This document shows positions 45,785-51,756 of a stretch of DNA of 64,000 nt, in pieces (positions within the stretch are counted from its first letter, which is position 1; every line of letters begins with the position of its first letter). This stretch comes from Mesorhizobium sp. M2A.F.Ca.ET.046.03.2.1 (GTDB lineage Bacteria; Pseudomonadota; Alphaproteobacteria; Rhizobiales; Rhizobiaceae). The stretch lies in contig NZ_CP034449.1 in NCBI RefSeq assembly GCF_003952425.1, positions 5,630,001 through 5,694,000 of the forward strand, in the 5' to 3' direction. The notes under the pieces are model-generated. The model did no database searches and was not told the DNA's origin. It saw only the letters and a program-made list of their open reading frames with translations. Position numbers and translations under genes: made by a program.

Positions 45785-46857
45785 CTATGGAAAGAGCGGT
45801 GGCAGCGCGTCGTCACGCGGCGCGCCTTTGCGCGTACCGCCGTCGTCCTTGTAGTAATAGCTGTAACCGTTGATGGCCGGCGCGCCGCCGAGATGCGCAT
45901 AGAGAATTCTCGCGCCTTCGGGAAAGAAGCCTTTCCTCGTCAGGTCGATCAGCCCCTGCATCGACTTTCCCTCATAGACCGGATCGGTGATCATCGCCTC
46001 GGTGCGGGCAGCCAGCCGGATCGCGTCGTTCGTTTCGTTCGATGGAACGCCATAGGCGGGATAGGCATAGTCGGGATTGATGACGATTTCGTCCTCGCGG
46101 ACGGCGCGGCCCAACCCGACGAGGGCGGCGGTGTCGTCGACGATGCGGCGGACCTGGGCGCGGGTCTGGTCGGGCGTGCCGGAGGCATCGATGCCGATCA
46201 CCCGGTCGGCGCGATCTTGAGCGGCGAAGCCGACGATCATGCCGGCCTGCGTCGAGCCGGTCACGACGCAGACGATGATGTAGTCGAATTTGAAACCGAG
46301 TTCGACTTCCTGTTTCGCCACCTCCTCGGCGAAGCCGACATAGCCCAGACCGCCGAACTTGTGCACCGAGGCGCCGGCAGGAATGGGGTAGGGCTTGCCG
46401 CCTGCATCCTTGACCGACTGGATCGCATCCTGCCAGCTCTTGCGAATGCCGATGTCGAAACCATCGTCGACGAGCCGGCTGTCGGCTCCCATCAGGCGCG
46501 TCAGCAGGATATTGCCGACCCGGTCGTAGACCGCATCGTAGTGCGGCACCCATTTCTCCTGGATGACCACGCATTTCATACCGATCTTGGCGGCCGTCGC
46601 GGCGACCATGCGCGTGTGGTTCGACTGCACGCCGCCGATCGACACCAGCGTGTCGGCGCCCGACGCGATCGCATCGGGCACGATATATTCGAGCTTGCGC
46701 AATTTGTTGCCTCCCATGGCAGCCCGGAATTGCAGTCATCACGCTTTGCATAGACCCGCACCTTGCCGCCAAGCGCCGCGCTGAGACGCGGCAGATGCTC
46801 GATCGGCGTCGGGCCGAAGGTCAGTGGATACCGTTGAAATTTTTCGAGAAGTGACAT
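45785..46857 (-). pseudogene. ACC deaminase/D-cysteine desulfhydrase-like gene, frameshifted
   Basis: PLP enzyme of the ACC deaminase family. The N-terminal frame runs from ATG 46857 (GGGAGG upstream, [22 protein letters not shown]) to DDCNSGL. The rest ([17 protein letters not shown] to the end at 45785) lies in another frame. Restoring one base near 46720 gives [17 protein letters not shown], with the PLP lysine in GGNK. Other family marks: [54 protein letters not shown] deaminase lowers plant ethylene. Some positions (VPSNET) differ from the Pseudomonas enzyme, so D-cysteine desulfhydrase activity is possible. Confidence 0.8.
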
Positions 46858-47003: not shown

Positions 47004-47478
47004 ATGGAAGAATCTTCCGATCATATTTTCGACCGCATCGACATCAAAATCCTGCGAGCCCTGCAGGCCGAGGGGCGGCTGACCAATGCCGAGCTGGCAG
47101 CGCGCGTGAATGTCAGCGCCGCCACCTGCCATCGGCACGCAACGCCTGTTCGAGGAGGGCTACATCACCGGAGTCAGGGCGGAGATCGCGCCCGCCGCGG
47201 TCGGGCTCGGCGCGCTGGTCATGGTCGGCGTCGTGCTCGATCGCTCGACACCGGAAAGTTTCGCCGCTTTCGAGGAGGCCGCCCTCAAGCTCAAGGAGGT
47301 CCTGGATTGTAATCTCGTGGCCGGCGACTTCGACTATCTGTTGAAGATACGGGTGCGCGACATGGCGGATTTCAACAAGCTGCACGGCCAGAAGCTGATC
47401 GCGTTGCCGGGCGTCCGGCAAACCAGGACCTTCTTTGTGATGAAGGAGGTCAAGGAGAACGCGCGGCTGCCGTTTTGA
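47004..47478 (+). pseudogene. Lrp/AsnC-family regulator (AcdR-like), frameshifted
   Basis: The N-terminal HTH frame (from ATG 47004, or TTG 46989: FDRIDIKILRALQAEGRLTNAELAARVNVSAATCHR) breaks near 47133. The rest (TQRLFEEGYITGVRAEIAP to ENARLPF) continues one frame on. The joined product would be a normal ~157-residue Lrp protein with a C-terminal RAM domain (LDCNLVAGDFDYLLKIRV). A two-base loss in CGGCGCACG would explain it. It is divergent from the ACC deaminase-like gene, the usual place of AcdR regulators. Confidence 0.78.
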
Positions 47479-47754: not shown

Positions 47755-47836
47755 TTCGTCCGTCCCCTTCAAGGTTTCCCAGGAGACCGCTTTATCACCG
47801 CAGGATTTGCGGCAATAGAGCCGAGCGATGCCGGGT

Positions 47837-48082
47837 GCTATTCGTGCCGCAGCGCGTCGATCGGATCGAGGCGGGCGCCGCGCAGCGCCGGGAAGAAGCC
47901 GAACACCATGCCGATCAGCGCCGAGAAGCCGACGGCCAGCAGGATGACGGCGGGGCTCGGCGCGAACGGTATCGTCAGCGCCATCGAGGCCATGCCGGCC
48001 AGCGACAGTCCGATCAGGATGCCGATAATGCCGCCGAGCAGCGACAGCACCGTCGCCTCGACCAGGAATTGGATGAGAATGT
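47837..48082 (-). pseudogene. orphaned 3' end of the MacB-type permease gene (direct repeat copy 1)
   Basis: 246 bp almost identical (five differences by eye, at least most of them silent) to 50542-50787, the end of the intact permease gene. It encodes only the final membrane segment (VEATVLSLLGGIIGILIG to LDPIDALRHE). It has no proper start and is cut off from the rest of the gene by the inserted DNA. It marks the far boundary of the insertion. Confidence 0.92.
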
Positions 48083-48147
48083 AACGAGCGCTCTGAGATG
48101 CGTGTGCGGTCTAACAAAGGCCGCTGCCTGTCGGCCTCGGCTGGCGT

Positions 48148-48510
48148 TCAACCACTCTTCTTAGGCTGGATGAACCACGCGTCGCCGCCCGCCGCCTGAT
48201 ATCCGTAGTGCCGCTCGTAGAATGACTTTAAGGCGCCTTCATATTGCGACAGGATCAGAATAGCGTCTCCGTATTGCGGCAAGGAATCGCTATCCAAAAG
48301 ATCAAGATACTTGTGATCCGGAGCGCCTTCCAGAAGTTTAACGGCGTCAGCTAGCACCCGATTTATAAGATTTACTTTGCTAGTGCTAAGCGTTCCTTCC
48401 GGCTTCTTCTTTCCAAGGTCTTTAAGTTCCTTGAATAGCTCAGTGAATACGCCGATCACGGCCTCGTATTGTCTAACTTTAGATTCTGTTGTATAGTATT
48501 TGTTCGACAT
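48148..48510 (-). CDS. small hypothetical protein, third gene of inserted operon
   Basis: 120 residues from ATG 48510, sharing one base with the stop of the gene before it (TGATG). I do not recognise the family. Helical, charged (KELKDLGKKKPEGT), with a core SKVNLINRVLADAVKLL and SLPQYGDAILILSQYEGAL, ending GGDAWFIQPKKSG. This core aligns without gaps to the neighbouring protein, so the two are diverged paralogues. No membrane segment or signal. Codon usage is more AT-rich than the flanks. Possibly an immunity, adaptor or sensor subunit; no function is assigned. Confidence 0.72.
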   Translation of the reverse strand: MSNKYYTTESKVRQYEAVIGVFTELFKELKDLGKKKPEGTLSTSKVNLINRVLADAVKLLEGAPDHKYLDLLDSDSLPQYGDAILILSQYEGALKSFYERHYGYQAAGGDAWFIQPKKSG

Positions 48511-48902
48511 CACTTTTTCTCTTGTATCTTCTTCGGTGGCGCCGTCCGGATCATCACGTCTGATCCTTCGATGCGGTAAATCCAAACTCCGTTTGTTCCA
48601 CGTTTTATGTTGTCAGCCCGCTTGCGCTCAAGCTCCTCGATGTATTGACCGAGGATAAGAGCGACATCACTTGTAGTCGGGACATCGTCCGCATCGAACT
48701 GATCAAAATCAGCCAAGGGTTTGTGCGTGGAGCCCAATATATCGTTTGCCTCACCAAGGATAGCGTTGACGAATTTCAACTTAAATTCGTTCAATCCATC
48801 GTTTGGCGATTTCTTCACAAGGGTCGCAATTTCCTTGTGAAGACCATCCATCTGACCGGAAATCTTCTCCAGCTTTTCTATTTGTTGAGGCGTCAAGGCC
48901 AT
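48510..48902 (-). CDS. small hypothetical protein, second gene of inserted operon
   Basis: 130 residues from ATG 48902, starting 9 bp after the nuclease-like gene ends. Unknown family. An N-terminal coiled-coil-like helix (QQIEKLEKISGQMDGLHKEIATLVKK), then FKLKFVNAILGEANDIL and DDVPTTSDVALILGQYIEELERKR, and a short beta segment GVWIYRIEGSDVMIR. It shares with the next gene product the pattern KK-x-P-x3-L-x3-K-x4-N-x2-L-x2-A-x3-L and a D-x2-LIL-x-QY motif. No catalytic residues are evident; probably a binding or regulatory partner. Confidence 0.75.
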   Translation of the reverse strand: MALTPQQIEKLEKISGQMDGLHKEIATLVKKSPNDGLNEFKLKFVNAILGEANDILGSTHKPLADFDQFDADDVPTTSDVALILGQYIEELERKRADNIKRGTNGVWIYRIEGSDVMIRTAPPKKIQEKK

Positions 48903-48911
48903 TTTTCAATC

Positions 48912-50288
48912 CTAACTCGGACAATCTCGCCTGAATTCAATATATTTTTTCTTGATCACGTCGATGGGTAGTCGCTGTTTGCTCTCGAACAACTCCACCA
49001 CCTGTTCGACGTCGGCATCAGTGAGTGTAATGATACTCCGGCGTTGACCCGACCAGAGATCGATTGTTCGTTGCTTTCGAGCGCCGGTTAGTGGATTGCG
49101 CGTCACCAATACTCCGAATTTTCCCAAACTGTCAGTCATGTAGGCGTTGAGCTGGTTCACATGATCACGGCTGACTTCTCGAACGTTCTTAAGCTCGAAG
49201 ACCAATTGTCTTGAAGCATAGTCGTCAAATATGCCTTTTAGAAAGGGATCGGACTGGGAATTGTAAAAGATGAGGTCGCGTACAAGCGAACCACTGTCCG
49301 TTCGGCTTTGGACTGCAGCGAAATCAAGCTGGGGATAGAGTAGTGACGGAAAGAGATCGCCAATCAGTTTCTCGTATTCGCGGTCGGCGTTCTCATTTTT
49401 ACCTGAAGGCAATTTCTTAATCGCGGTCAACTTGCGGCGGGCGGATATAACCGGAATCTGGGTAAAGAGCGGATCGTTTTTGCAATCTTCGAACGTTCTT
49501 TCCTTCTCTCTGATATAAGCGTCGACGACGTTGTAATTTGCGCGGTTGAAATTCAGGACGTCCACGCGTTCAAGTTTGTCTGCCTCATGCGAGATATCGT
49601 CCTGTGGACAATGTTCCTGGAAATAGTCGTCGTAAGAAATCCAAGGCCCGAAGCGAAGCCAGCGCTTCGGCACCAGAATCAGTGGAGCGCGCGTATCAGG
49701 GTGAAAAGGGAGTTGGACACCCCCTTCTGGTTTGAACTCGTTCTTTCGGTAGTCATAGACGTGGGGGAGGGTGTGGTCCCTCAAGGGAATCCCATGCCGA
49801 TGACATTGTTCGATGGTGTAGTCGACGAGAAATGACTTTGTGAAGCTACAGGTGATATCGCTGATTCTATCTTTCGAAATACCGTCGATGAAAAACTGAA
49901 TCTCTTCGAAGTGACGAAATCCAGCGCTGCCGTATTGTGGGATAGTTTTGAACAGGGAGAGAATTTCGTGCGCCTTGGTCTTACCCAGACGTTTCCCTTT
50001 TCTCGTGGCCGAAGCGCCGAGACCGACCTCATCACACTCAGATGCGGCAATCAATGTTCCAACGGCCTTCTTTTGCTCTCCCCGAAGGAAGAGCTGACCT
50101 AGTTGATTGAAGGCGTTGATGACGGCGGTGTGAAGCGCTTGATCCTGTTGTGACGGAGAGGCCCACAGGAGGAATGGATCGACGTAAAGTGGTATGTCTT
50201 CGTTGAAAAACGGTATGGCAAAATCAAGCTGCGCTTGTGGCGTTGGAATTCCGAAGTAGTCCGTCAGGCGAGGGTTAACGAGCACCAT
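48912..50288 (-). CDS. putative PD-(D/E)XK-type nuclease, first gene of inserted operon
   Basis: 458 residues. Residues ~1-290 are an unrecognised domain (LTDYFGIPTPQAQLDFAIPF, YVDPFLLWASPSQQDQA, DRISDITCSFTKSFLVDYT). The C-terminal third has the pattern of a PD-(D/E)XK nuclease: helix YEKLIGDLFPSL (Glu306), Asp338 in RDLIFYN, Glu365-x-Lys367 in LVFELKN, and a trailing helix HVNQLNAY with Gln379 and Tyr383. This resembles restriction-type or Mrr-like nuclease cores. No methyltransferase, ATPase or helicase is present. Operon with two small paralogous proteins and AT-rich codon usage suggest a transferred, possibly defensive, module. Confidence 0.75.
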   Translation of the reverse strand: MVLVNPRLTDYFGIPTPQAQLDFAIPFFNEDIPLYVDPFLLWASPSQQDQALHTAVINAFNQLGQLFLRGEQKKAVGTLIAASECDEVGLGASATRKGKRLGKTKAHEILSLFKTIPQYGSAGFRHFEEIQFFIDGISKDRISDITCSFTKSFLVDYTIEQCHRHGIPLRDHTLPHVYDYRKNEFKPEGGVQLPFHPDTRAPLILVPKRWLRFGPWISYDDYFQEHCPQDDISHEADKLERVDVLNFNRANYNVVDAYIREKERTFEDCKNDPLFTQIPVISARRKLTAIKKLPSGKNENADREYEKLIGDLFPSLLYPQLDFAAVQSRTDSGSLVRDLIFYNSQSDPFLKGIFDDYASRQLVFELKNVREVSRDHVNQLNAYMTDSLGKFGVLVTRNPLTGARKQRTIDLWSGQRRSIITLTDADVEQVVELFESKQRLPIDVIKKKYIEFRRDCPS

Positions 50289-50542
50289 GGGGTCAGCGGT
50301 TCTAACTTTGTGTTGGCTACGCAGAGCGAATGTTCAGTCACCAATCCCCCGTATTTATTGTTTCTCGAACAGAAACATGTTGTCGACAGCAATGCTAGGC
50401 AAGTTTGAAACGGCTTTCGATACGGAAGAGCGTCCAAATAAAGTTCGGAATCCCCGTAAAACGGTAAATCAATCTAGCATTGTAGGGTCGGATGGTGACA
50501 GTGCTGTCGACGTGCGCATGCACCAAGGTTGTGGAATAACGG

Positions 50543-51756
<1,214 letters not shown>

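Follow-up and report, generated by a model that had tools for sequence, protein, structure and literature searches.

Candidate defence systems bearing PDC names are described, in passages of one report, as products of a guilt-by-embedding approach that are mostly unvalidated (PMC12988326). The paper on DefensePredictor counts 13 systems with PD-(D/E)XK domains among those it validated, and its main text uses no PDC names (PMC13092281). One PDC candidate, PDC-M36, was found as a three-gene operon in a 64,000-nucleotide stretch of Mesorhizobium sp. M2A.F.Ca.ET.046.03.2.1 (contig NZ_CP034449.1, positions 5,630,001 to 5,694,000; hereafter the window). The genes, all on the minus strand, are A (48912..50288; 458 amino acids), B1 (48510..48902; 130 amino acids) and B2 (48148..48510; 120 amino acids). 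A and B1 are separated by 9 bp and the ATG of B2 overlaps the stop codon of B1 by one base, in full agreement with an original prediction made from the sequence alone. That prediction also called the operon unrecognised, which did not hold: PADLOC-DB profiles match all three products (A to PDC-M36A, PDLC04597, E 6.8e-230, positions 1-457 of 457; B1 and B2 to PDC-M36B, with best profiles PDLC04599, E 1.5e-49, and PDLC04600, E 8.2e-39), and homologues have the precomputed Pfam domain PF28123, which was not reported by our local Pfam scan. With a full-length M36A protein, adjacent M36B genes and profile matches over most or all of each protein, nothing excludes membership and the trio is an already catalogued defence candidate. 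The name PDC-M36 was absent from the full texts searched (preprints and most subscription papers lay outside the search), and no published test of the system was found.

We put at roughly 60% the probability that PDC-M36 serves as a small mobile unit against phages or plasmids, in which A is a DNA endonuclease that is restrained or aimed by its N-terminal domain and a B1-B2 complex. By this mechanism, A would cleave DNA through a cleavage domain of the FokI/BspD6I type, the N-terminal domain and the B1-B2 complex would hold this domain in check or aim it, and the nuclease, with phage as its presumed target, would act only on a foreign feature or trigger and not on bare host DNA, so that the cell would be spared.

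The predicted nuclease domain of protein A

Protein A consists of a conserved N-terminal domain (residues ~1-275) and a C-terminal domain (277-458), with the VIA-align rows for A lying mainly in the latter. The residues initially singled out as having PD-(D/E)XK spacing (i.e. D338, E365-x-K367, Q379 and Y383) are present and are invariant in 30/30 aligned proteins, comprising the window protein and those of 29 of the 43 loci collected; E306 is also listed among the residues of this domain. Of six distant A-like proteins that were aligned, five have the D and E-x-K residues (L047, L053, L073, L074 and L077) and the sixth, L090, has D and D-x-K. Structure prediction gave the expected fold and not the contrary outcome, and A combines the two hallmarks of the superfamily, the D...(D/E)-x-K residues and a predicted core fold. 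Assignment of the C-terminal domain as a PD-(D/E)XK nuclease, and as the predicted cutting domain, is well supported.

Structural alignments gave 11-12% identity to FokI/R.BspD6I-type endonucleases, without a sequence match, and A differs from these enzymes in having two small helical partners and no methylase beside it. Foldseek searches with the A or B1 models yielded no match at E<=0.001, and no usable match came from sequence searches of solved structures with A, the A profile, the B profile and B2. A sub-threshold match to PDDEXK_3 (residues 356-397) was the sole result of the local Pfam scan on A; this match and one to the GxxExxY nucleases (359-396) cover the E-x-K and Q-x3-Y residues but fall below the curated cut-offs (17.9 vs 22 bits and 13.5 vs 35, respectively).

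The operon had been noted to lack a methylase, and none was present among the flanking genes scanned. The partner methyltransferase that a type II restriction-modification system has beside its nuclease is thus absent from these genes, and conditional action of A would be needed because of this absence. A is most likely a conditional DNA nuclease. A type IV-like restriction system, in which the N-terminal domain would read modified phage DNA, the C-terminal domain would cut and B1-B2 would act as assembly or specificity subunits, appears quite improbable; no known DNA-reading domain was recognised in A by the Pfam scan or by structural alignments, which lie mainly in residues 277-458.

Parts of A recur in other settings, and its putative control domain is found in other nucleases too. 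A Klebsiella plasmid protein (L090:2453-4465) has its C-terminal nuclease domain in common with A (E 3.1e-13), whereas an ORC/CDC6-like ATPase replaces the N-terminal domain of A and D-x-K replaces E-x-K; no M36B gene was found in the 8.4 kb at this locus. Plasmid records matching A numbered 58 (27 Klebsiella, 12 Enterobacter and 7 Citrobacter), and the 12 enterobacterial plasmid records among the matches listed were aligned to residues 288-415 only. In phage records the nuclease domain was matched twice, weakly and in part.

Two lineages of small partner proteins

B1 and B2 are paralogues (29/86 identical residues, E 1e-11), a relationship stronger than the 27-residue stretch from which it had first been proposed. 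The accompanying idea that one arose from the other has to be revised: in a tree of B proteins (n = 85), a branch with 100/100 support splits first-position from second-position genes, and B1 and B2 had split well before the lineage of the window arose. The order B1, B2, with one gene of each type, was seen in 38 of 39 two-B loci (i.e. the window, L046 and 37 of the 43 loci). PADLOC has one name for the small genes, whereas here they fall into two ancient, position-fixed lineages. The B1 model, for which 42 B proteins were aligned, had a mean predicted local distance difference test score (pLDDT) of 91.4; the predicted structure consists of three long helices and a small beta portion. A fold shared with the bacterial proteasome activator Bpa was considered for B and is tentative. 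As the pair is fixed and anciently split, a heteromer aiming or restraining A is suggested; this helical pair would most likely bind A as a B1-B2 heteromer.

Pairwise distances between the proteins were correlated over 37 loci, comprising the window and 36 of the 37 two-B loci (L043 was left out), with coefficients of 0.70 for A-B1, 0.87 for A-B2 and 0.66 for B1-B2; 0 of 2000 permutations were as high. Co-divergence of this kind is what would be expected of a unit moving whole and is, alone, no proof of contact.

Distribution and co-occurrence of the three genes

The three genes travel together, and the survey outcome that would have spoken against the original prediction, with the genes apart, did not appear: in 37 of the 43 loci A is accompanied by two B genes, both intact and with no third (the A gene of L043 is truncated at the start of its contig). 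The remainder comprised three loci with one B gene, one with three, one with a broken first B and a second, and L039, in which A stops short next to the end of the contig. The nearest named locus was L002 from Mesorhizobium loti DSM 2626, whose A protein is 95% identical. Gene gaps in 38 loci were -29 to 18 bp and -4 to 51 bp, with starts placed at the first possible codon and set by hand in three loci. The trio was also present on a Methylobacterium plasmid, and two B genes were found on six of seven IMG/VR contigs; in L084, A stops short ~0.1 kb from where the contig ends. The order A-B1-B2 is kept across named bacterial groups, where non-proteobacterial placements come mostly from record titles and many loci are metagenome bins, so that an individual placement in another phylum may reflect a binning error.

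Within the genus, the A profile matched 8/146 genomes (two over the whole length at E ~1e-229 and six at 8.5e-42 or weaker), and within the class 10/289 genomes (seven at E 1e-30 or weaker). The B profile matched 2/398 genomes of the phylum, namely that of the window and a second one; in each of them, A lies beside two B genes. The loci themselves were found through A, and the search for B genes lacking A covered these 398 genomes alone.

These patterns bear on a toxin-antitoxin-like or abortive module, whereby A would damage the DNA of its own cell, B1-B2 would neutralise A, and phage or plasmid loss would free it. Tight coupling of the small partner genes in a fixed order, the strong co-variation of A-B2 distances, the mobility of the module and the missing methylase among the flanking genes scanned would all suit such a function. 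Antitoxin genes, however, often precede toxin genes, whereas A comes first and the B genes after; some distant A-like proteins have no M36B gene nearby; and the search for B in the 398 genomes gave two matches, both beside A. On balance this alternative is considered unlikely, and a conditional nuclease directed at foreign DNA is preferred.

Insertion site and mobility of the module

Mobile boundaries had been suspected and proved sharper than claimed. A 246-bp segment, corresponding to the 3' terminus of a gene for a MacB-type permease with MacB_PCD and FtsX domains, lies on both sides of the module as minus-strand direct repeats with 98% identity. The upstream copy (50542..50787) is continuous with the permease gene and the downstream copy (47837..48082) runs into the native downstream flank. 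Four relatives (L068-L071) have a single copy of the repeat and an empty site, with macB 92-97% identical outside the repeat, and in L002 this site is occupied by the module, but there is no second copy. Identity between the window and L002 at third codon positions was 0.76 for A and 0.77 for macB, i.e. an equal divergence. This would be consistent either with a module that is old at the site and is cleanly lost by repeat recombination or with acquisition from a relative by homologous recombination. Clean loss of the module by homologous recombination between the 246-bp repeats may be possible.

The module is single-copy in this genome (7.37 Mb, one contig). The AT-rich codons attributed to the trio were evident from the GC content at third codon positions (0.56 for A, 0.55 for B1 and 0.53 for B2, as compared to 0.89 for the preceding gene). 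No recombinase gene was present in the insert, in which the open reading frames (ORFs) of >=60 amino acids were the three module genes and frames overlapping them.

In other carriers, the module resembles an integron cassette. In L023 (Ichthyenterobacterium) and L028 (Polaribacter), it is located within an array of small genes in which CACG|TT sites pair at 6/7 and 8/8 positions, respectively (14/15, module included); pairing was defined as the first seven bases after the cut being reverse-complementary to a stretch <=4 kb downstream, followed by C. This layout is that of integron cassettes, and in both loci the module conforms to it, its first bases pairing with the inner end of its own attC-like site. 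The site pattern was picked after the sequences were inspected. None of five such sites paired in L024, L036 and L037, giving 14/20 over the five loci, and random positions in these five loci, with the first two bases set to TT, paired in 1124/10000 cases. Similar ends around the module were visible by eye in L024, L036 and L037. A tyrosine recombinase (Phage_integrase, E 5.4e-39) is encoded just before the first site of L028, and matches to the TIGR02249 integron-integrase family in these genomes were below cut-off. At least 16 of 179 integron cassettes in Vibrio cholerae have anti-phage activity, as have others in mobile integrons, and a cassette of three genes would therefore stand out should the array prove to be an integron.

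The recombinase type and site family of these Flavobacteriaceae arrays (L028:3160-15371 and L023:183-9150) deserve their own study. For the window module, an attC-like end (GTTAGAC, 48115-48109) was considered and set aside: the ends were not seen to be complementary by eye, and a pattern scan after B2 was empty for L002, at the same site.

Association with integron-like cassettes, IMG/VR contigs, a plasmid and direct-repeat flanks could also point to a non-defence nuclease that serves a mobile element in its transfer, in DNA repair or in keeping out rival elements. This is judged very unlikely, as the same three genes are kept across unrelated carriers and sites and none of the ORFs of >=60 amino acids in the window insert is a recombinase gene. 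The module behaves as cargo because its three genes are constant in these unrelated settings.

Weighing a role in defence

A location in defence islands, which the original prediction had proposed to check, was examined using 144 neighbouring proteins (the nearest two on each side, >=130 and <1100 amino acids) from a pool of 526 ORFs of >=90 amino acids in the 43 loci, trio included. Among the 25 most frequent families, PADLOC profiles detected AbiLi (5), AriA (5) and PtuA (up to 4); the 25 most frequent of 100 Pfam families included GmrSD_N (2), Methylase_S (2), N6_Mtase (1) and EcoO109I (1), and NCBIfam detected PtuA (3). The 49 other genes of the window, a crude, unmatched control from one genome stretch, matched 35 PADLOC families, with single profiles reaching up to 2/49 among the matches listed, and enrichment is for this reason not claimed. 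PADLOC lists the trio as a defence candidate; the neighbourhood signal was not clearly above this control.

Several observations weigh against the proposed defence nuclease with a B1-B2 complex. The neighbourhood signal is weak, with the top PADLOC profiles at 5/144 as compared to up to 2/49 in the control, again among the matches listed. The B1-B2 pair is not universal because single-B, double-B1 and triple-B loci exist: the three loci from Acidobacteriota each carry one B gene only, of the first-position type, so that one B can suffice; L043 (Chloroflexota), the exception among two-B loci, has two first-position types; and a Prevotellaceae locus (L031:8353-9375) has three tandem M36B genes, two of first-position and one of second-position type. 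Fourteen loci encode distant A-like proteins, several with both domains, without an M36B-type gene within the 2.4-4.4 kb examined. One study further reports that two other PADLOC candidates, PDC-M63AB and PDC-S04, failed to give defence in tests carried out in their host (PMC12409345).

A more specific version of the model is tentative and on the doubtful side. In it, A, B1 and B2 would form a new multi-subunit immune nuclease, with an anciently duplicated helical heteromer that, as an obligate sensor or clamp, permits cleavage by a FokI-type cutter via the N-terminal domain, and the 2.1-kb unit would spread between phyla as an integron-type cassette and in other carriers. If true, a nuclease with two duplicated partners and no methylase would solve self/non-self discrimination otherwise than restriction-modification does. 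PDC-M36 now has a testable layout of named catalytic residues, a control domain and a fixed paralogue pair.

Leader, flanking genes and additional observations

The module leader (50289..50541, minus strand), extending from the stop codon of the macB-type gene to gene A, contains one weak sigma-70-like match at 50386-50357; five such matches were found on both strands of 47800-50700 versus 2.0 expected. The flanking genes scanned encode the MacB-type permease, an ABC ATPase, an HlyD-type protein, an Lrp/AsnC domain, a PALP enzyme and an 80-amino-acid protein without a Pfam match.

A second case of direct repeats was observed in L026, an Acidobacteriaceae contig, where a single-B module lies between 32-bp copies (1091-1122 and 2959-2990) that are 97% alike. 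In the window, a PALP-domain, pyridoxal phosphate-dependent enzyme is encoded at 45788-46717 beside an Lrp/AsnC-type regulator (47110-47475). This enzyme has no counterpart in the 15-kb L002 locus, and presumably resembles ACC deaminase.
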